Counted from the stretch's first letter, positions 2,551 to 13,461 are shown. The stretch is 64,000 bases of DNA from Fusobacteria bacterium ZRK30 (GCA_024628785.1 CP102404.1:930001-994000), one strand, 5' to 3'. Numbers and translations are program-made. The notes: generated from the sequence alone by a model not told the origin.

Positions 2551-3281
2551 CTATTTCGCAGAGACCCTGTAAGAGTCACCATTCATGTTTAAAATATGTC
2601 CTCTAAATGTTACGCGATCTATTAAAGCTGTTGTTAACATTGTATCAGGGAAGAATTCTTCCCACTCTGAAAATGCTAAATTAGTAGAAATTATAATACT
2701 TCCCCTCTCACTTCTTTCTGAAATCACTTGAAATAGGAGTTCTGATTGATGTTTGTTAAAGGAGAGGTAGGAAAGCTCATCTATTATGAGTAGATCTAAT
2801 CTTGCTAATTGCCTTAAGAATCTCCCTAAATTACTATTTTCTTGCGCTTCAACTAATTTATTTGATAAGTTAGCAGCTGTAGTAAAGTACACCTTATGTC
2901 CACAGTTGCAAGCTTTAAGTCCTAGAGCTATAGAAAGATGTGTCTTTCCAGTTCCTGGGTTCCCTATCATTATTATATTTTCTTTTTTTTGATAAACTCA
3001 CAGCTGGAGAGTTCGCCTACTACTGAAGGTTTTAAATAGCTAAGACGTTTAACTTCAAACTCTTCTAGCGTTTTTTCAAAGGGAAATTTAGCTCCGCGCT
3101 TTAACCTGAAAAGTTTATTGTCTTGTCTAGTTAATACTTCCTTTTCTAATAGTGTAAGCAGAAATTCTTCATATCCTTGTTTTGAATTTATTGCTTGGCG
3201 CTGAACCTCATGATAGTCTTTGAAGCTAGATAGTTTTAAAGCTTTGGAAAAAAGTTTAATTTTTTCACTAATTACACTCAT
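2551..3281 (-). CDS. istB: IstB ATPase helper of IS21, read through a -1 frameshift
   Basis: AAA+-type helper that works with IstA in IS21 transposition. The N-terminal part (3281 down to 2973) ends ..CEFIKKKKI at a stop. The C-terminal part continues in the -1 frame as ENIIMIGNPGTGKTH (Walker A) and LDLLIIDELSYL (Walker B). The two frames meet at eight A's followed by G, which contains A AAA AAG in the zero frame (2988-2982). A -1 slip there gives FIKKKENIIMIGNPGTGKTH, the expected IstB continuity, and a protein of about 242 residues, normal for the family. Either programmed frameshifting or a one-base deletion would explain it. The start overlaps the end of istA by four bases. Confidence 0.82.
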
Positions 3282-4648
3282 TGGATCACCTCTTGGGAAA
3301 TTAAGTTATCATATTTACCTAAATTATTTCTTTGAACTTCTATTTGGTCGTTGATTTTAGGAAGACCGACTTCTTCTCTTAGATATTCTAAAAAGAGTTT
3401 TGAATCTCCTTTAGAGTGATACATTTCAAAAATTGCTTTAGGAATATTTTGTATAACTGGATCAGCATTAAATACAGCTCGCGGTTTTCTTTCTAAAGCT
3501 TTAAGATAGTGAATTAATTGATAACTATGCTTATTTTTTTTAAATATTCTCTGGTGAATTGCAACAACTTTACCTTTATGAAGAAATTGTATTTCTGAAT
3601 GACCAGTTTTTAAAATCACCTCAGTTCCTACTAATTCACAGGGTAATGAATATTTATTAGTTTCAAAAGTTACAGTTGAAAACTTAGTGACTCTTTTATA
3701 GTCTCTTTTAGAAATATCTAGTGAATGGCTAGGAAGCTCTAAAAGGTTATTAGCTTCAATCTGGAATTTTTGTTTAACACTTAAGCTTTCACCGCCAACT
3801 TTATGATTTTCTAAGTAGTTATCACAAGCCTTTTTTATTTTGATATTTAACTCATTCAAACTTTTAACTCTAGGGATAGGAACCATAGTATTTCTTCTGA
3901 TAAGTCCTACTAAATTTTCAACCAAACCTTTTTCATTTCCACTTCTAACATTGCAAAATTTAGGTTTAAAAGCATAATGAGCAACGAGAGTTTCATACCC
4001 TTTAGTTATTTTAGTTACATGTTTTCCATAGCCTTCTGATACAGCAACTCTGGCATTATCAAAGAGAACTTCTCTAGGAATACCACCAAAATATTCAAAA
4101 GCAGAGATGATCCCATCTAAAAAACATTCTTCTCTTTCTGCGAAGTAGGCCTTAGTAAAGATATGAGCGCTATATGCTAACCGAGCACAAAAATATTTTA
4201 TTTCCTGCTTTTCATCATTGAGAAAGATATGCGCTGAACCAAAATCAATTTGCATAGCTTCCGCAGGATTAAAGGTAAGTGGTAGAAAAACCTCTTTTGT
4301 TTTACCTTTTAATTCTCTAAATGCAACCTTAACAGAAGAATATGAACCAAGAAACCCAACCTCTTCTTTGAGTCTAACCCAAACCCTATTAGCAGTGTGC
4401 CTCTGTTTTGAATGAGTATGCTCGTTGTCTTCAAAAATACAAGCTTCAATAAAGTCTAAGACTTCTCTAGTCATAACTTGTTTTCCTCGAGAAGAAAACT
4501 TTTTTTCTCCAGGAATTGTATCTCCATTAATATACTTTCTAACAGTGTTTCTAGAAATATGAAGATCTCTAGAAATTTTTCTAATAGAAACCCCTTCAAC
4601 TAGATGAAGTCGTCTAATTTTTTTATATGTATCCATATGAATTGCCAC
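3278..4648 (-). CDS. istA: IstA transposase of IS21 family
   Basis: DDE transposase. An N-terminal helix-turn-helix (VSIRKISRDLHISRNTVRKY, around residues 15-35) is followed by the catalytic core, with the first Asp in MQIDFGSAHI, the second in VLFDNARVAV and the Glu in NEKGLVENLVG. A C-terminal beta-rich region follows. The frame is open to 4708, but I choose GTG at 4648 because AGGAGG sits six bases upstream; ATG at 4636 is the alternative. The resulting length of about 456 residues fits IS21 IstA. It overlaps istB by four bases, implying coupled translation. Confidence 0.88.
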   Translation of the reverse strand: MAIHMDTYKKIRRLHLVEGVSIRKISRDLHISRNTVRKYINGDTIPGEKKFSSRGKQVMTREVLDFIEACIFEDNEHTHSKQRHTANRVWVRLKEEVGFLGSYSSVKVAFRELKGKTKEVFLPLTFNPAEAMQIDFGSAHIFLNDEKQEIKYFCARLAYSAHIFTKAYFAEREECFLDGIISAFEYFGGIPREVLFDNARVAVSEGYGKHVTKITKGYETLVAHYAFKPKFCNVRSGNEKGLVENLVGLIRRNTMVPIPRVKSLNELNIKIKKACDNYLENHKVGGESLSVKQKFQIEANNLLELPSHSLDISKRDYKRVTKFSTVTFETNKYSLPCELVGTEVILKTGHSEIQFLHKGKVVAIHQRIFKKNKHSYQLIHYLKALERKPRAVFNADPVIQNIPKAIFEMYHSKGDSKLFLEYLREEVGLPKINDQIEVQRNNLGKYDNLISQEVIQ

Positions 4649-4764
4649 CTCAAACCTCCTGTACATCTCTTTAAAAAGATTGTACAGAGTAATATTAGGG
4701 TGGGTCAATAATTAGCTGCCTTTTTTATCTCAAAAGGGTCAATTTTATATTACCCTTTACATAC

Positions 4765-5695: not shown

Positions 5696-5983
5696 ATGAA
5701 ATATAACAAAAGTCATTTTACAATTGATCAGCAAATTAAAAAGATAAAATCTGATGGTTTTATAGTAAACAATGAAGATCAATTAAAGGTAATTTGGTTT
5801 TATCTTGAAGGAACATTATTCTTTATAAAATATATAATTGATAAAATTAAACCAGAATACGATTTTAATCCTCTTTACACTTTAATTGATGGATTTATAA
5901 AAAAATACCCTGGTAAAGCTATTTATATGGGAATAATGACTCCTGATAAATTAAAATACTTGATAGAAACTCCTAAGATCTAG
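5696..5983 (+). CDS. short Abi_2 (AbiD/AbiF-like) protein, 95 aa, apparently internally deleted
   Basis: Start ATG at 5696 with AGGAGAG eight bases upstream; the frame upstream of it lies in the leader hairpin. The N-terminus (FTIDQQIKKIKSDGFIVNNE) matches the opening of Abi_2 proteins, which have a 'QI..L...G' pattern. The C-terminus (LIDGFIKKYPGKAIYMGI) resembles the end of the same family. At 95 residues it is about a third of the usual length, so the central HEPN-like part would be missing. It may be a deletion derivative of an abortive-infection gene or a small regulator. Family assignment is by pattern only. Confidence 0.45.
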   Translation: MKYNKSHFTIDQQIKKIKSDGFIVNNEDQLKVIWFYLEGTLFFIKYIIDKIKPEYDFNPLYTLIDGFIKKYPGKAIYMGIMTPDKLKYLIETPKI

Positions 5984-6006
5984 ACTAAAATCTAGGTCTT
6001 TTTTTC
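5975..6006 (+). terminator. Rho-independent terminator after the Abi_2-like gene
   Basis: AAGATCTAGA pairs with TCTAGGTCTT around an ACTAAAA loop, followed by a T run. It overlaps the last codons of the ORF. Confidence 0.75.
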
Positions 6007-6091
6007 TTTTCCTATAGTTCTTATTGTTAAATATGTGTAAAAAAACAAAAAAATTACACACATCAAAAAAATATGGGTACAAGATGCCCTG

Positions 6092-6370
6092 GTTCTTTTT
6101 ACATTCCGGGCGATTCTCCGTAAGATTCGGCTGGAGACTAGCTTCTGTACGACCAGGTATCCGCTTTCCTCTTTCCTCCTTATTGGAGACGGATTCTGAG
6201 GATTTCTAGCCGAGGGGAGCTTACTTCATCCCCCCTCGCCGTTCCCCTCACACTCCCCTTGGCTACCCCCTCTAATCGGTAGCGTTCGTGAGGGGATACT
6301 CATATGGGTGATTCAGCTCGTTACGCATTCGCTCGGTGTAGATAGTAGGGATAAACTGTCTTAGATATCC
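6092..6370 (+). repeat. structured repeat A, copy 1
   Basis: GC-rich block in an AT-rich setting, about 270 bp, in the same orientation as copy 2 at 13106-13379 and very similar along its length. Its stems include CGGCTGGAGA (6128-6137) with TTTCTAGCCG (6203-6212), a CGAGGGG/CCCCTCG hairpin, TCCCCTCAC/GTGAGGGGA, and inside that GCTACC/GGTAGC. In copy 2 the 3' arm of the first stem is TCTCCAGCCG. Both differences keep pairing as G-U on the + strand only. It ends AGGGATAA..GATATCC (6347-6370), a module shared with family B. The short ORFs crossing it are not conserved in quality and look spurious. Confidence 0.75.
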
Positions 6371-6507
6371 TTTTTTTCTCATTTTTTCAATATCTTCATC
6401 TCTAAATTTAGAATTATAATTTTTTATCTGAATTGTTTTCTTTGTAGCATTCAGAATAAAAATTTATTCTAGAAGTAAATTCTTTAACTTCATAAATTTA
6501 AAGCTAC

Positions 6508-7611
6508 TTACTTAATAATTAAATAATCATAAATATCACTATATTTTTGACCATATTCAAAAGTTTTGTTAGAGGATATTTTCTTTTTAGGAAAAATAAA
6601 ATTTGCAATATTATTAAACATATCTGAGTTTATAGTTTTATAGAAGATTTTGTCTTCAATATAATTATTACTTAAAAAACTATTCGATTTTATATTTGAT
6701 CTTCGTTCAATATCAAGAGATAAAGTTTTATCTTTAAAATAATCACTCTGAGTTTTTAATAAATAAACACAAGATGTATAACTATTAACTTTACTTTTAA
6801 ATATATGATCTTTACCTATAACTAATATGAATGTTTCATTAGGGTAGAGTTTTGAAATATATTCAATATTTTTTGAAATATGAACTTCTCTTTTGTTGAG
6901 ATCAACGGCTTTAGTTTGATGTATGTTTGAGGTATCTATTGCAGATTTTATAAAATAACGAGTCATAGGGTCTAAATCTTTGTCCAATTTACGCTGAAGT
7001 TTCTTTAAAAAAGTTTTATGATCTTTAGTGTAATCTTTAGTGTGAGTATCTGGATATTTCACTAACAAATCTTTTATTTCCCCCTTTAACTTCCTATCTT
7101 TTACTACTTCAGTTAATAAAAAGTTTAAAAATGGATGAGGTCTAAACTCAAGATCAACACCTACTAATTTAACTTTATCTTCAAAAGTCTTTGATCTATT
7201 AAATTCATAAAGATCTCTAAAAAAATTCTCAAACTTAACATGTTGAATTTTAAATTTATCATTTATTACACCTGGAAAATTTATAGCTTTATATAAGTAT
7301 TCTTCATTGCCAGTCAATACAAATTTATTAGCATATTCTGCATTTGCAGGAGGGAATTCCAATAAAAAATGTCTTATATTTCTTGTTTCATAAAGAAGTT
7401 TTAAAAAATCCAAAGAGATATCATATGATAAAAAATAACGATGATTTTCACCTATTGTAATCAATTTTATATCTTTTTCAACTACTTCAGTTTGAAATTT
7501 TTCTAAGGTTGTTTTTTGGAATGTTTCATTAAAATAAGTAGTTTCTATCCTTTTTTTTCCTATAAATACCAATGCTACAAATATTAAAACTATTAAAAAT
7601 ATTTTTTTCAT
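6508..7611 (-). CDS. membrane-anchored EreA/ChaN-like (erythromycin esterase/Tiki superfamily) protein
   Basis: 367 residues. An N-terminal signal or anchor (KKIFLIVLIFVALVFIG) places the rest outside the inner membrane. The core shows EreA/ChaN-like features: ITIGENHR (the G-E-x-H motif) near residue 53, LEFPPANAEYANKF, LVGVDLEFRPHP near 150, and LVIGKDHI near 275. The superfamily includes macrolide esterases, haem-binding ChaN and metal-dependent Tiki-like peptidases, so the substrate cannot be named. It is the last gene of the leftward operon after three MFS exporters, which suggests a role in detoxification or in processing what they export. Confidence 0.55.
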   Translation of the reverse strand: MKKIFLIVLIFVALVFIGKKRIETTYFNETFQKTTLEKFQTEVVEKDIKLITIGENHRYFLSYDISLDFLKLLYETRNIRHFLLEFPPANAEYANKFVLTGNEEYLYKAINFPGVINDKFKIQHVKFENFFRDLYEFNRSKTFEDKVKLVGVDLEFRPHPFLNFLLTEVVKDRKLKGEIKDLLVKYPDTHTKDYTKDHKTFLKKLQRKLDKDLDPMTRYFIKSAIDTSNIHQTKAVDLNKREVHISKNIEYISKLYPNETFILVIGKDHIFKSKVNSYTSCVYLLKTQSDYFKDKTLSLDIERRSNIKSNSFLSNNYIEDKIFYKTINSDMFNNIANFIFPKKKISSNKTFEYGQKYSDIYDYLIIK

Positions 7612-7659
7612 AATATACTCCTTTTTAATTTTATTTTAATAAAATTTTCGAAGAATCTT

Positions 7660-8898
7660 TTATATAAATTTTCCCAAATTCATTTTTATATCTTTTGAAT
7701 CTACCCTTCTCACCACTACAATAAAGTAAAAAACAGCACATAAACCACTGGCAGTAAGAGATAAATAAAGCGGATTAACTTTATCTATAATTCCAGCTAC
7801 TAAAAAATAACCGATAGGGGTCAATATAGATCCAAATATCTCTATCAATGAAAAAGCCCTGCCTTTTATCTTATGAGGTATCACTATCTCAAAATATACA
7901 AATAAAGTTTCAACATATATAATATTTGTAGCCCCAAAGATAAAAAATAAGCTGATTATACTCAACTGGCACAACAGTAAATTATTACTAAAAACATATA
8001 GTGAAATAGGAATTCCTGCTAAAACTATAAAATTAATTATAACCATCTTTTTCCATAGCTTCCCTCCTAATTCAAATTTTTCAGGATATTTAGCTAAAAT
8101 CCCTCCTCCTATAATATATCCTATTGCAACACTAGACATTGTATATCCTAGAAATATTACTGGAAGTTTTAGATAGCTGGTGATAATAAATGGAAAAACA
8201 ACCGATATTATAGGATTAAAAAAGAAGTTTACAGATAACATAAACAACATAAGTCCTTTAAAGCTCGAATTAGCATTTTTGATATATACCAATGGTTCCT
8301 TATACTCTTTAATAATATTTACCCTTTCTTTATTCTTTGATTTTGTCAGATGTGACTTATATCTAATAAAAAACTCTAAAATTCCAGAGATTAAAAATGA
8401 TAATAGATTGATAGTTAAAATAAAGTTTAATCCTAGTTTCGTATAGAGGAAAATTCCTACAGGAGGAGCAGATATATTTATAATCCTGACCACAGTTTTC
8501 ATCAATGATTTTCTTTTTAACAAGTCTTTACTCTTCACAATTTGACTAAAAATAGTTCCGGAGGCTGCAAAGAAAAGTTTATTCACTGAATTTTGTATAA
8601 AAATAAGAGCAAAAAGATAGTTGATGTCTCCTTCTGCTAAAAATATATATCCACCTAATAACCCTGCATTTATCAGATCACAAATAATCATTATATATTT
8701 TCTATTAAATTTATCCGCTATATACCCTGCTACAAATGAAGTCAATAAGAGCAAAACTTCCTGTATACCTAAAACAGAACCCAGTGTTCCTCCGGACCTG
8801 GTCCCCTCTAGTATAACGATAGGAATAATAGCATTTTGGAGCGATCCTCCTAGTATTGACGCGATCCTACACCAAAAATATAACCAATAGTTTCTCAT
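7660..8898 (-). CDS. MFS exporter (Mef/EntS-like, MFS_3), third of three
   Basis: 412 residues with about 12 hydrophobic segments. The MFS loop 2-3 signature appears as GYIADKFNRKYIMIICDLI (around residue 60) and the family-typical late motif as IPHKIKGRAFSLIEIFGSILTPIGY. The MFS_3 group includes macrolide efflux pumps (Mef) and siderophore exporter EntS. It follows the 404-residue paralogue after a 41-base gap and precedes the EreA/ChaN-like gene by 48 bases, so the four genes look like one operon. The substrate is unknown. Confidence 0.8.
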   Translation of the reverse strand: MRNYWLYFWCRIASILGGSLQNAIIPIVILEGTRSGGTLGSVLGIQEVLLLLTSFVAGYIADKFNRKYIMIICDLINAGLLGGYIFLAEGDINYLFALIFIQNSVNKLFFAASGTIFSQIVKSKDLLKRKSLMKTVVRIINISAPPVGIFLYTKLGLNFILTINLLSFLISGILEFFIRYKSHLTKSKNKERVNIIKEYKEPLVYIKNANSSFKGLMLFMLSVNFFFNPIISVVFPFIITSYLKLPVIFLGYTMSSVAIGYIIGGGILAKYPEKFELGGKLWKKMVIINFIVLAGIPISLYVFSNNLLLCQLSIISLFFIFGATNIIYVETLFVYFEIVIPHKIKGRAFSLIEIFGSILTPIGYFLVAGIIDKVNPLYLSLTASGLCAVFYFIVVVRRVDSKDIKMNLGKFI

Positions 8899-8939
8899 TT
8901 TTATTCCTCCCTATACCTACAAGATAATTTTAGTATAAA

Positions 8940-10154
8940 TTATACACTTCTATACTTATTTTTATTTTCTTTTGTTAACCATCTAAAAACTATAAGATAA
9001 GTAGATAGTAATATACCGGTAATAATAAAAAGTGATGCAGAATTCCCCCCTGCTAATATAAACCCTATCAGCAATTGACCTAAGGGTGTGGCTATATCCA
9101 TGGAACTATTAAATAGAGCTCCTATTCGGCCGTAATACTCTTCTGGAACTATATCTTGAAAACTTCCTACTAGACATATTCCAAGAATATTTATCAACCC
9201 TGCTACTAAAAATCCAAATATAGTCAGTGAAATTATAAGAACTAAGAAATTTGATGTTCCTAAAAAGATTCCACCACAAGCGATTGTCATAATTATTATT
9301 AATAGATAAATTTTTTTTAGTAGTGTATTGATACTAACTTTCTTTAATATATTGCTGGCTATAAATGGAGAGATAACCATAGCACTGATCATTATGGATA
9401 GAACAATTCCAAAAGTTCTATCATCAACTAATAGTTGTGTTTTTAATATATACGGAAAAGCAATGGAGAAAAGAGGTCCTATCAATAGGTTTAAGCCGCA
9501 TCCTATAAATATAAGACCTAATATAGATCTATCCTTACCTAAAATAACTACACCTTCCTTTAGATCTACTAATAAACTTTTTACATCAAGTTTACTTTTT
9601 CCTCTCTTACTCACAGGAAGTTTTATGAATATCTCACTTATTCCTGATATAACAAAGCTTAAACTATTAAACATCATTATAGGAAGTAATCCAAAGCTGT
9701 ATGTGAATCCTGCAATTAACGGAGTAATAAACTCCAAACCTGAAGATAAAAATGAGTTTAAACTATTGGCATTTTTTCTTTCGCTTTTTTCTATAATTAC
9801 AGGTAATACTCCCATTGAGGCAGGAGCAAACATTACATTAAGAAGAGAAAGCGTTATTTGGATAACATAGATATCAAAGATTGAAAACTCTCCTTTAAAA
9901 AAAAATATCAAAGAGTAGATGGCTATTACTCCTCCACTTATAAAATCTAAGGTAACCATAATTTTTTTCTTATTAAACTTATCTGCCAATACTCCTGCAA
10001 ATGGCCCTAAAATAATTCTAGGTATAAAAGATACTGCTATCGTAGACGCAAATAATGCAGCATCTCCAGTCTTGTGAAGTACATATAGTGATAATGAAAA
10101 GTTTTGAATATATGTCCCAAAAATCGAAACAAACCGACCTACAATTAACAACAT
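8940..10154 (-). CDS. MFS exporter (Mef/EntS-like, MFS_3), second of three
   Basis: 404 residues, multi-pass. Begins MLLIVGRFVSIFGTYIQNFS and carries FAGVLADKFNKKKIMVTLDF at the loop 2-3 position and VPEEYYGRIGALFNSSMDIA late in the chain, closely parallel to the other two copies. Tandem triplication of one MFS type in a single operon is unusual; the copies are clearly diverged, so this is not a recent duplication. Regulation is probably from the shared promoter upstream of the first copy. Confidence 0.8.
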   Translation of the reverse strand: MLLIVGRFVSIFGTYIQNFSLSLYVLHKTGDAALFASTIAVSFIPRIILGPFAGVLADKFNKKKIMVTLDFISGGVIAIYSLIFFFKGEFSIFDIYVIQITLSLLNVMFAPASMGVLPVIIEKSERKNANSLNSFLSSGLEFITPLIAGFTYSFGLLPIMMFNSLSFVISGISEIFIKLPVSKRGKSKLDVKSLLVDLKEGVVILGKDRSILGLIFIGCGLNLLIGPLFSIAFPYILKTQLLVDDRTFGIVLSIMISAMVISPFIASNILKKVSINTLLKKIYLLIIIMTIACGGIFLGTSNFLVLIISLTIFGFLVAGLINILGICLVGSFQDIVPEEYYGRIGALFNSSMDIATPLGQLLIGFILAGGNSASLFIITGILLSTYLIVFRWLTKENKNKYRSV

Positions 10155-10215
10155 AAAATTTGAATTTCTTAATAATTTTTTATTAAAAATCTTCCTCTCC
10201 TCCTATTCGTTACAA

Positions 10216-11445
10216 TTAATTAGCAATTGATTTATTTACAAACTTTTTTCCTGCTTTAGTTTTTCCAAAGAATAAATAGGTTGCTATTGTTAATGTGATT
10301 GATCCCATAGTAACAACAGATCTTATATTGAATTTATAATCTATCAAAAGACCAAAAATTATTAAACCAAAAGGAACTACAGATCTAACCATTGTATCCA
10401 ATAATGAGAAAAACCTCCCTTTAATATCACAGTCTACGGTTTTTTGTAGATAAGATAAAAATGGAACATTGACTAAACTATTAAAAATACCAAGCATCAA
10501 GATAAGAAATCCATTTATATAAATAAAATATGGATTAGGAATATACAGATCCATATTTATAAATAATGCTAAAATCATTAGTTGAATCATCAAAAAATAA
10601 GTTATTTTTTCTCTAAATTCAATTGTTTTTAAAAATTTACCAATGATAATATTACCTAATAAAAGACCAATAACAAATACACTCTGTAAATAACCTATAT
10701 ATGAAGGTTTTAAGTTTAATTCTTGTAAGATAAAGTATGAAAATACAATCGTTGTCACAGGATTAAAAAAGAAATTTAGAACAATAATATACCCTGAAAC
10801 CCCTAAGATTTCATCTTTTTCCTTTAAATATTTTACAACAGGAGCATAGGATGCTATGACACTTTTAACACTTTGAATCTTGATCTCTTTTCTTTTTTCA
10901 CTAGGAGTATACTGTATAAAAAATTCAGAGAATCCTGAAATTAAAAAAGTTATTGCGTTTAAAAGAAAGATTAATTCTATTTTCATAAATCCATACAAAG
11001 CAACTCCTAAAATTGGAGTAAATATTTGTGTAAAGGTGATTACTCCACTATAGATATTGTTATTTCTTTCAACTTTTTTTATAGAATCTAATTCTGAAAA
11101 AATTGCCGAAGATGCAGATGAAAAACATCTTGAAATAACAACCAGAACTCCTTGCATAAGAATTATAGAAGAAGTGCTAGTTCTTCCACTGAGAAGTAGA
11201 ATTGATATTGTTATAAAAGACAAAAAATCACATATTATTAATAGGTGTTTTCTATTGAATTTATCTGCTACTATTCCCATTATTGGACCGGTAATAAGAC
11301 TTAGAACTAAAAATACACTGGCAGCTTTTCCCATCTCTAGGCCTGACCCTGTGACTTTTAAAATATATAGTGGAATAACAACTGACTGCATCCCCGAACC
11401 TACAATTGATGTAACTGATGATATTAAATATAGTAAAAAATTCAT
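10216..11445 (-). CDS. MFS exporter (Mef/EntS-like, MFS_3), first of three
   Basis: 409 residues with about 12 membrane segments. Loop motif MGIVADKFNRKHLLIICDF; late motif VDCDIKGRFFSLLDTMVRSV. GGGGAGGAGAAT precedes the ATG at 11445. It is the promoter-proximal gene of the leftward operon. The operon starts opposite the HTH-TPR regulator, with the palindrome at 11524-11609 between them, so it is the likely regulatory target. Confidence 0.8.
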   Translation of the reverse strand: MNFLLYLISSVTSIVGSGMQSVVIPLYILKVTGSGLEMGKAASVFLVLSLITGPIMGIVADKFNRKHLLIICDFLSFITISILLLSGRTSTSSIILMQGVLVVISRCFSSASSAIFSELDSIKKVERNNNIYSGVITFTQIFTPILGVALYGFMKIELIFLLNAITFLISGFSEFFIQYTPSEKRKEIKIQSVKSVIASYAPVVKYLKEKDEILGVSGYIIVLNFFFNPVTTIVFSYFILQELNLKPSYIGYLQSVFVIGLLLGNIIIGKFLKTIEFREKITYFLMIQLMILALFINMDLYIPNPYFIYINGFLILMLGIFNSLVNVPFLSYLQKTVDCDIKGRFFSLLDTMVRSVVPFGLIIFGLLIDYKFNIRSVVTMGSITLTIATYLFFGKTKAGKKFVNKSIAN

Positions 11446-11500
11446 ATTCTCCTCCCCTTTTTAATCAATAAAAAACTAAATATTTTTCATTGCTATAATA

Positions 11501-11528
11501 TATATACTGGGCTTTTCTGAAATATCAA
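11501..11528 (-). promoter_or_regulatory. promoter of the MFS operon
   Basis: On the minus strand, TTGATA (complement of 11523-11528), a 16-base spacer, then TATATA (complement of 11501-11506). The -35 box forms the left tip of the large palindrome. Confidence 0.5.
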
Positions 11529-11609
11529 AAAAAATTGAAAAATAGACAAAAAATGAATTTTAAAGGACTATTTTATTCATTTTTTCACCTATTTTAAAGT
11601 TTTTTTGAT
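11524..11609. promoter_or_regulatory. large palindromic operator between regulator and MFS operon
   Basis: Left arm 11524-11558 and right arm 11575-11609 are inverted copies of 35 bases, matching at 28 positions, with a 16-base centre. The innermost 11 bases (AAAAAATGAAT) and outermost 10 are exact. The -35 hexamers of both divergent promoters sit at the two tips, so one protein bound here could control both directions. Arms of this length also could form a hairpin. Confidence 0.6.
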
Positions 11610-11632
11610 AAATTGAATTTTAAAGATATACT
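11605..11632 (+). promoter_or_regulatory. promoter of the HTH-TPR regulator
   Basis: TTGATA at 11605-11610, a 16-base spacer and TATACT at 11627-11632, about 28 bases before the start codon. The -35 box is the right tip of the palindrome, which suggests autoregulation. Confidence 0.6.
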
Positions 11633-11659
11633 CTTAATACTAAATAGGGAGGGATTATC

Positions 11660-12865
11660 GTGCAAAAAATATTTGAACTAGCAAAAGAACATAAAATAAC
11701 TTTAAAAGAACTTTCAAGGCAAAGACTTAGTTCAACATATCTTTCTAAAATAAAAAGAGGTCATAATTTTTTTAAAGAAAAACATATCCCCTTGTTGGTT
11801 GATTCTTTTAATAGAATTTTTCAAGAAAGAAATATAAATAAAGTTGTTACTATAAAAGAATTATGGATTAGTCCTCAGGAGGAACTAGATCAACTAATTG
11901 TTGAAAGTCTTATAAATAAAAGTATCTATTCCAAAGAAAAACAAGAAGAAATAGAATTATTTGGACGTGAGAAAGAAGTTCACAGCTGTAAATATCGATA
12001 TATTATAGCCAAATATAATCAAAAGATGGGGAGGAAAGAAAAAGCTTTAAATATCTATTATGATCTATTAAATCATTTCTCTTGCTCCGCTCTATTCTAT
12101 TCTGTCTTAATTGAAATAACTAGATTAGAAAAAGCTCAAATTGTCTATGAAATACATCTGAAATATAAAAATAAAATTAATATAGCTCCATTTAAAACAA
12201 AAGCTCTTTTAACTTATAATACTGGTGTAAATCTTTTGAAAACTAAAAAATGGGGTAAAGCTATCCCTTTTTTTAAAATTATCATTGATATGCCAGAGAT
12301 TACAAAACACTACTACCACTCCTACAATAATTTAGGTATTTGTTATCAAAACTTAGGAGAATATGAGAAAGCTATTGAACACTTTAAAAAAAGTGTGAGT
12401 GATCCATCAAATTATCATGAGTTGGAAGTTTGTTATACTAACATCATTTCTTGTGCTAAAAAAATGAAAAATGAAATACTAGTAAAAATTACTGTTAATA
12501 AACTGGAAAATATACTTAAAAAATTAAAAAACAAAGCTTTGTATCAAACTTATTGGAATTTAGGGTTATCCTACCTATATTTAGGAGAAACAAAGAAAGC
12601 CATTGTTGCATTTGAAAAGGAAATTTCATTCCCTTTAGATCTTAAGCATCATCACTTTAATCCCACTAAATATTTAGACTCCATAAAACAACTTGTTTTA
12701 CTTTATGGTCATCAGCCATTAAAACAGCAGGAATTAATAAAAATAATTTGTGAAATACCAAAAGAAATGATGTGTTACGATTTTTCTATGTATATATTAA
12801 AATTTTATATAAAAAATTCTTTAGAATACGAAGCTAATCTTCTTATTCAGAAAATACAATTATAA
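11660..12865 (+). CDS. RRNPP-type HTH-TPR regulator (NprR/PlcR-like)
   Basis: 401 residues, starting at GTG with AGGGAGGG upstream. The N-terminal 55 residues form an XRE-like helix-turn-helix (ITLKELSRQRLSSTYLSKIK). The rest is helical with recognisable TPRs: YNTGVNLLKTKKWGKAIPFF, YNNLGICYQNLGEYEKAIEH, and WNLGLSYLYLGETKKAIVAF. This architecture and length fit peptide-pheromone receptors such as NprR, PlcR and AimR. Context agrees: a small signal-peptide ORF follows immediately and a divergent exporter operon shares a palindromic control region. Binding of a peptide is inference; XRE-TPR proteins without a pheromone also exist. Confidence 0.7.
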   Translation: MQKIFELAKEHKITLKELSRQRLSSTYLSKIKRGHNFFKEKHIPLLVDSFNRIFQERNINKVVTIKELWISPQEELDQLIVESLINKSIYSKEKQEEIELFGREKEVHSCKYRYIIAKYNQKMGRKEKALNIYYDLLNHFSCSALFYSVLIEITRLEKAQIVYEIHLKYKNKINIAPFKTKALLTYNTGVNLLKTKKWGKAIPFFKIIIDMPEITKHYYHSYNNLGICYQNLGEYEKAIEHFKKSVSDPSNYHELEVCYTNIISCAKKMKNEILVKITVNKLENILKKLKNKALYQTYWNLGLSYLYLGETKKAIVAFEKEISFPLDLKHHHFNPTKYLDSIKQLVLLYGHQPLKQQELIKIICEIPKEMMCYDFSMYILKFYIKNSLEYEANLLIQKIQL

Positions 12866-12882
12866 ATTTAAAGGGGGAAAAA

Positions 12883-13003
12883 ATGAAAAAAATGGTTAAT
12901 ATTTATAGGTGTCTTATTACTCTTTAGTATCACTTTAGCTAATAAAAATGCAGGGAGAGGAAGAAGGGATACTCACAGAGATACTTACATGTATAAAATT
13001 TAA
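12883..13003 (+). CDS. candidate secreted signalling peptide precursor (frame broken at A7)
   Basis: GGGGG then ATG at 12883, followed by seven A's. From TGG at 12893 to TAA at 13001-13003 the frame encodes WLIFIGVLLLFSITLA, a good signal-peptide core. A short charged tail follows (NKNAGRGRRDTHRDTYMYKI). With six A's the ATG would read straight in as MKKWLIF.. and give 39 residues; with the seven present, the ATG frame stops after 14 codons. It begins 18 bases after the regulator's stop, the place where RRNPP pheromone genes usually sit. Slippage, phase variation, a mutation or a sequencing error could explain the extra A. No other start fits the open frame. Confidence 0.5.
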
Positions 13004-13024
13004 ACTTCTAATTAAACTTAACTA

Positions 13025-13068
13025 AAAAAAGAGCCCTTGAAGCATTAATGCTTCAAGGGCTCTTTTTT
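13025..13068 (+). terminator. terminator of regulator and peptide genes
   Basis: A perfect 32-base palindrome (13031-13062; arms GAGCCCTTGAAGCATT and its inverse) is flanked by A's and a T run. It is very strong and probably bidirectional. Confidence 0.9.
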
Positions 13069-13105
13069 CTCCTACTTTCAAAATCATCTATTCCTATATT
13101 CAGAC

Positions 13106-13379
13106 GGATATCCAATATTCTTCTTTCATTCCCGGGCGATTCTCAAAAAGATCGGCTGGAGACCAGCTTCTGTACGACCAAATATCCGCTTTCTTCTGAC
13201 CTCCTTATTGGAGACAGACTCGGAGGATCTCCAGCCGAGGGGAGCTTACTTCATCCCCCCTCGCCGTTCCCCTCACACTCCCCTTGGCTACCCCCTCTAA
13301 AATCGGTAGCGTTCGTGAGGGGATACTCATATGGGGGATTCAGCTCGTCCGCCCTCGCTCGGTGTAGATAGTAGGGATA
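13106..13379 (+). repeat. structured repeat A, copy 2
   Basis: Second copy of the GC-rich block at 6092-6370. It opens with GGATATCC and carries the same nested stems. The main stem is a perfect 10 bp here (13153-13162 with 13228-13237). It ends at GTAGGGATA and lacks the terminal GATATCC. The two A copies enclose the MFS/regulator/peptide module as direct repeats. The 107-codon frame crossing this copy has no protein-like composition and is rejected as a gene. Confidence 0.75.
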
Positions 13380-13380
13380 G

Positions 13381-13461
13381 CCCTGTGACTATTATATTTT
13401 ATAGCTTATTCCACCTTTCTATATAATATTAGGTAGGAATAAGCTACTTGCGTCACTAGGG
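13381..13461 (+). other. large nested hairpin after repeat A copy 2
   Basis: CCCTGTGAC (13381-13389) faces GTCACTAGGG (13452-13461). Inside, AGCTTATTCC (13403-13412) is the exact inverse of GGAATAAGCT (13436-13445), with CCT/AGG beyond. It directly continues repeat A copy 2 and may be part of one longer structured transcript. No T run follows, so it is not a plain terminator. Confidence 0.55.

Follow-up and report, generated by a model that had tools for sequence, protein, structure and literature searches.

A candidate peptide receptor-pheromone module of the RRNPP type in the Fusobacteriaceae

The window analysed here is a stretch of 64,000 nucleotides from Fusobacteria bacterium ZRK30 (GCA_024628785.1 CP102404.1:930001-994000; C1:930001-994000 within a 3.6 Mb assembly whose large contigs measure 2.37 and 1.04 Mb), the named relatives of which are Fusobacteriaceae. 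It contains a regulator with an XRE-type helix-turn-helix (HTH) and tetratricopeptide repeats (TPR), which is followed by a small gene and faces an operon of major facilitator superfamily (MFS) exporters. This locus is probably a peptide receptor-pheromone module of the Fusobacteriaceae that works in the manner of the RRNPP systems, outside the Firmicutes. At the level of sequence the module is supported by the pairing of regulator and peptide genes, their conservation, the match between operator and HTH, the joint replacement of TPR domain and peptide, a shared terminator and the frame state of the small gene. Peptide-pheromone receptors of the cytoplasmic kind are presented as a speciality of the Firmicutes, the phylum on which the large surveys were made. 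Literature searches, in which most subscription journals were not covered, found no report of such a system in Fusobacteriota. With a family of this kind in the diderm Fusobacteriota, outer-membrane bacteria would be added to those that communicate in this way, and one would have to ask how the peptide leaves and returns.

The strongest evidence for a module comes from L059, the orthologue of this locus in the sister genome G007. At the DNA level L059 is nearly identical to the window in its operon (93-98%), intergenic region (95%) and HTH (91%), whereas identity drops to 80-59% over the TPR domain and to 46% for the peptide gene. The C-terminal half of the L059 regulator and its peptide match the paralogue L018 instead, at 82-84% and 61% protein identity. 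On these alignments, TPR domain and peptide are replaced together under a conserved operon, promoter and HTH, and such a natural swap beside a nearly unchanged operon would be a clear instance of the modular evolution of signal specificity. The same association is seen in Mantel tests over 10 regulator-peptide pairs, where peptide distances follow those of the TPR residues 66-401 (r 0.77, p 1e-4) and not those of the HTH (r 0.15, p 0.13), although the pairs share descent and have recombined, and part of the correlation stems from adjacency alone. The mature part of the peptide correlates best with regulator residues 201-270 (r 0.65).

The HTH, for its part, agrees with a DNA site. An operator-like palindrome, ATGAATTTTAAAGGACTATTTTATTCAT, lies at 11553-11580 between the divergent promoters, about 103 bp upstream of the regulator start; none is expected by chance in the window. 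Of the 14 copies in the window's genus, 12 have such a site at -101 to -107, and HTH type and palindrome type coincide in all 12; in the other two (L054 and L060) the upstream region is unrelated and no palindrome was recognised. Because no second convincing site of the window type was found anywhere in the genome, control by the window regulator is probably local. A further half-site, ATAAATTGAATTT, is present on the plus strand at 11608-11620, inside the regulator promoter.

Pairing of the regulator with a precursor gene is repeated within the genus. Seven regulator copies are followed, 14-21 nt downstream, by an intact signal-peptide open reading frame (ORF). The window's own genome has three further copies of the regulator, two of them (L017 and L018) followed by intact signal-peptide ORFs and the third (L019) broken, with a relative of the peptide about 2 kb away; as many as five copies occur per sister genome, one of these split in two pieces. 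Judged by hydropathy, the precursors have a basic start, a hydrophobic core and small residues before a likely cut site. Their signal region has changed mostly by synonymous substitution (pS 0.60 and pN 0.23 over all pairs; four synonymous and no non-synonymous changes between L017 and L058), and the mature part is far more variable. Conservation of the small ORF beside the regulator in relatives had been set beforehand as a test able to refute the idea; the ORF was found conserved and the idea survived. At L056 (7995-10928) two tandem regulator copies of different HTH type have one peptide gene between them. At L062 (4792-6418) in genome G009, two double-glycine-type leader ORFs (MKELQLN...MMMIDGG) lie near an XRE-TPR regulator, which also has a divergent signal-peptide ORF of 41 aa upstream.

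In five relatives from three other genera (g14, g5 and g10, including Ilyobacter polytropus), the ORF right behind the regulator encodes a signal peptide and then tandem copies of a peptide, for example (SSRRATSGGWAV)n. In the g14 and g5 precursors a unit of 12 or 17 residues is repeated 4-7 times, with copies identical inside each precursor and different between species; the g10 precursor has two complete copies plus a third that has diverged, and its contig carries no more of the regulator than the C-terminus. A common core, [ST]-T/S-RR-x-x-x-G/S-GW, is recognisable in the copies, and in L063 identical repeats differ by silent codon changes. Because in all five precursors the stop codon comes immediately after a final copy ending in GGW, a mature peptide with a C-terminal tryptophan is a reasonable guess. 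The I. polytropus gene, on pILYOP01, is annotated as hypothetical only (WP_013388348.1). I. polytropus DSM 2926 is a named and sequenced strain with a complete pair, in which WP_013388349.1 is the regulator, and a likely pheromone legible from the repeats, so that the idea is directly testable there. Divergent to the paired regulator, a gene for an HD-domain (HD-GYP-type) protein was observed at L063 (6978-7673), L064 (6904-7599), L066 (6954-7649), L052 (7563-8624) and L056 (6823-7674), that is, beside several tandem-repeat pairs and two copies in the window's genus, which belong to two separate groups. This protein is possibly an older target than the MFS exporters.

The small gene might instead encode an effector, a secreted bacteriocin-like peptide or the substrate of a ribosomally synthesized and post-translationally modified peptide (RiPP) pathway, the production of which the regulator controls without sensing it. 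In favour of such a role, radical-SAM, MFS and ABC genes stand opposite the broken copy L019, and L062 lies near double-glycine-type peptides; however, no modification enzyme or dedicated transporter is present beside the I. polytropus tandem-repeat genes or most of the genus copies, and the variation of the precursor tracks the TPR domain of the receptor, which an unsensed effector would not need. We hold this explanation to be quite unlikely. As an observation in its own right, the L019 region (5944-12510), with a broken regulator opposite split radical-SAM, MFS and ABC genes, resembles a decaying RiPP-type cluster.

Among 98 genomes of the phylum, a profile search identified the regulator family in 39, all from one family of Fusobacteriales. 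A contig scan with the alignment of the genus added none, matching only two genomes that were already included. A tree was built from 53 full-length members, of which 14 were labelled as paired and 39 as unpaired. The paired rows comprise 10 from the window's genus, three of them out of frame, and four with tandem repeats; for the other 39, no comparable downstream signal-peptide-type ORF was found by the same scan. Intact precursors thus accompany 11 of 14 against 0 of 39 (Fisher p 5e-9, indicative only, as the members are related). Paired rows fall into two groups, one a clean clade and the other including two unpaired rows; along the tree the label has to change three times. A stricter scan combining ribosome-binding site (RBS) and signal was excluded from the counts, as it missed several true pairs by taking the first start in each frame.

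In the window itself the small gene is out of frame. The sequence-only reading had described a small signal-peptide ORF 18 bases behind the regulator, which does not hold as worded: the ATG at 12883 lies 17 nt past the regulator stop and opens an ORF of only 14 codons (MKKMVNIYRCLITL*, plus strand, 12883-12927), and the precursor lies in another frame without a start. This second frame (plus strand, 12887-13003) spans 38 codons and reads KKWLIFIGVLLLFSITLANKNAGRGRRDTHRDTYMYKI*. An open stretch of its length occurs in 14% of Markov shuffles and is not rare alone; it is a real homologue, as it aligns with nine relatives and is matched by tblastn with a relative's precursor at E 5e-9. Alternative starts for it were considered and rejected: a TGA overlaps the ATG, and no ATG, GTG or TTG is found near the beginning of the open frame. 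It can be reached from ATG 12883 only if the run of seven adenines after the ATG (A7; plus strand, 12886-12892) differs by one base. The corresponding runs in relatives are A8, A9, A9 and A10, and the precursor frame is kept only by A6 or A9. With the precursor out of frame after the A7 run, the window copy is probably mute at present, through switching off by slippage, through decay or as a copy listening to other cells.

As to the frame state only, the adenine run may serve phase variation, its slippage switching the pheromone gene on and off, or RNA polymerase may restore the frame there; we think this possible but somewhat doubtful. Five homologous genes start ATG-A(n)-TGG with n = 7, 8, 9, 9 and 10, and the precursor is in frame only at n = 9, so that three of the five are off, in contrast to none of 17 other genes with RBS-ATG-A6+ starts at the same loci (p 0.006, or 0.02 counting one ambiguous start). 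General assembly noise is disfavoured, the 17 other poly-A starts all being in frame; the off copies come from two independent assemblies, and their downstream frames are still open for 39-45 codons. Against slippage, one genome was compared per species and no switching was seen, A7 is short for a contingency locus, and a sequencing error in the window assembly is a possible alternative for its A7. Plain decay does occur, because L145 (G007:C2:54868-54954), an orphan relative of the precursor that adjoins no regulator found, is out of frame too, and its tract, GA6, is not expected to slip.

The regulator (plus strand, 11660-12865; GTG start, 401 aa) is the proposed peptide receptor, as judged from its ORF, TPR matches, AlphaFold2 (AF2) model and family distribution. 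It had been read as a 401-residue XRE-HTH and TPR protein, and this is borne out: TPR matches reach E 3e-14 (TPR_2, Pfam), and the AF2 model (mean pLDDT 85) has a helical N-terminal domain ahead of the helical hairpins of the TPR region. The HTH (residues 1-65, plus strand, 11660-11854) has no Pfam match of its own; it was assigned by alignment with relatives that match HTH_3 at E 5e-6 and 8e-6 and by the agreement with operator type. A profile search of the PDB with the regulator gives NprR at E ~2e-9; no natural bacterial chain scores better, and designed and eukaryotic TPR proteins rank above it. The earlier likening of the locus to the standard NprR/PlcR layout stands as a likeness only, the NprR match sitting among generic TPR proteins and fold searches being generic. 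Common descent with the RRNPPA receptors (Rap, Rgg, NprR, PlcR, PrgX, AimR) is possible, the TPR similarity being generic. A search for phage or viral carriage of the regulator gave no match.

The regulator appears to form a single transcription unit with the small gene, because a very stable hairpin terminator (13024-13069, z -9.5), usable in both directions, comes after the small gene. The promoter-like sequence TTGATA-16-TATACT (plus strand, 11605-11632) is a consensus match only. Within this unit, the small gene would encode a precursor with a Sec signal peptide, single-copy in the window's genus and multi-copy in the other genera. The precursor would be exported and cut, and the short peptide would return to the cytoplasm, most plausibly through Opp-type ABC importers; the genome encodes 16 SBP_bac_5 import proteins, which are common and not specific. 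In the cytoplasm the peptide would bind the TPR groove of the regulator, to which the joint replacement of TPR domain and peptide points indirectly, and thereby alter HTH binding to the palindrome at 11553-11580. Because that palindrome is placed between two divergent promoters, one for the regulator-peptide unit and one for the three-MFS operon, the peptide may control its own unit and the exporters.

The divergent operon, on the minus strand, begins with a Mef/EntS-like MFS exporter (10216-11445) followed by a second (8940-10154) and a third (7660-8898), all three matching Pfam MFS_1 (E 1e-25 to 4e-36). Its fourth gene (6508-7611) encodes 367 aa with one N-terminal hydrophobic segment and is found in the same place in L059 with 98% identical DNA. 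The divergent cluster of three MFS genes and a fourth is thus as first described, and the label EreA/ChaN-like for the fourth is not sustained: searches gave no Pfam match at E 1 and no NCBIfam match at 0.01, a single-sequence structure model (pLDDT 40) was too poor for use, and GENHR...GKDHI-type motifs are the sole hint. This operon also fits an ordinary XRE-TPR regulator of efflux that senses a small molecule or exporter substrate, with a small gene that is unrelated or decaying and merely linked. The Mef/EntS-like exporters, the out-of-frame small gene of the window and the absence of a peptide gene from most distant family members speak for such a regulator. It does not account well for a conserved precursor with mainly synonymous change in the signal part, for the joint swap of TPR domain and peptide in an otherwise unchanged locus, or for the tandem-repeat precursors that other genera have in this position, and we consider it unlikely.

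Several points weigh against a receptor-pheromone module. The window's own peptide gene is frame-shifted, such a gene is missing beside many members of the regulator family, and the pairs behind the TPR-peptide correlation are few and related. Signal peptides were recognised by eye and from hydropathy, and Foldseek of the regulator against the PDB and viral structures returned generic TPR superhelix folds only. The peptide would have to pass the outer membrane twice, and its secretion, cleavage, import, binding and sign of regulation are inferred. The conserved pairing and the receptor-peptide cassette swap support the earlier reading of a peptide-signalling module, and the frame of the window gene counts against it.

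More tentatively, and with less than even confidence, the Fusobacteriaceae may have their own family of peptide quorum sensing, with single-copy and tandem multi-copy precursors, with HTH (plus operator) and TPR-plus-pheromone halves exchanged as modules, by which an operon can come to answer a different signal, and with poly-A slippage as an on/off switch. The whole module in the window is flanked by a GC-richer direct repeat of ~260-310 nt (6093-6353 and 13080-13390), more copies of which are found on contigs C3, C4 and C5, and this repeat could have helped to move it. A transposase and ATPase pair, apparently IS21-like, lies at 2551-4708, with a near-identical copy close to the paralogue L018.

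Among known systems, the RRNPP signature consists of five criteria: a propeptide of 10-100 aa, Sec secretion, a receptor of 250-500 aa, TPRs, and direct adjacency of the two genes (PMC10075063). The regulator (401 aa; relatives 402-438 aa) falls within the receptor range and carries TPRs; precursors in relatives, of 41-105 aa, are counted as small propeptides, and their gaps to the regulator are 14-43 nt, compared with 17 nt in the window, where the out-of-frame gene, with 14 aa in frame, does not qualify as a propeptide as sequenced. Sec secretion of the precursors is suggested by hydropathy only. Like NprR-NprX and PlcR-PapR of the RRNPP(A) family in Bacillota (PMC10075063, PMC9765709), the fusobacterial module combines an HTH and TPR receptor of ~400 aa with a precursor gene directly downstream, a putative Sec-type signal and probably local targets. 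Unlike these, it belongs to a diderm phylum, has no family-specific match in sequence or fold beyond TPR, has a frame-shifted precursor in the window and exchanges its HTH and TPR-peptide halves between loci. Tandem propeptides with up to six copies are known from the AimR, NprR, PlcR and Rap subfamilies of Bacillota (PMC11343458, PMC9765709), and the fusobacterial ones resemble them in having several mature-peptide copies per secreted precursor beside a TPR receptor; they differ in being found in other genera and not in the window, in having 3-7 copies with a GW/GGW end, and in their unrelated sequence. Finally, L019 recalls the Rgg/SHP-controlled radical-SAM RiPP (RaS-RiPP) loci of streptococci in placing a peptide-type regulator beside radical-SAM and MFS/ABC genes, whereas SHP genes are shorter and use PptAB, and the fusobacterial precursor is Sec-like and lies within the regulator's own unit.

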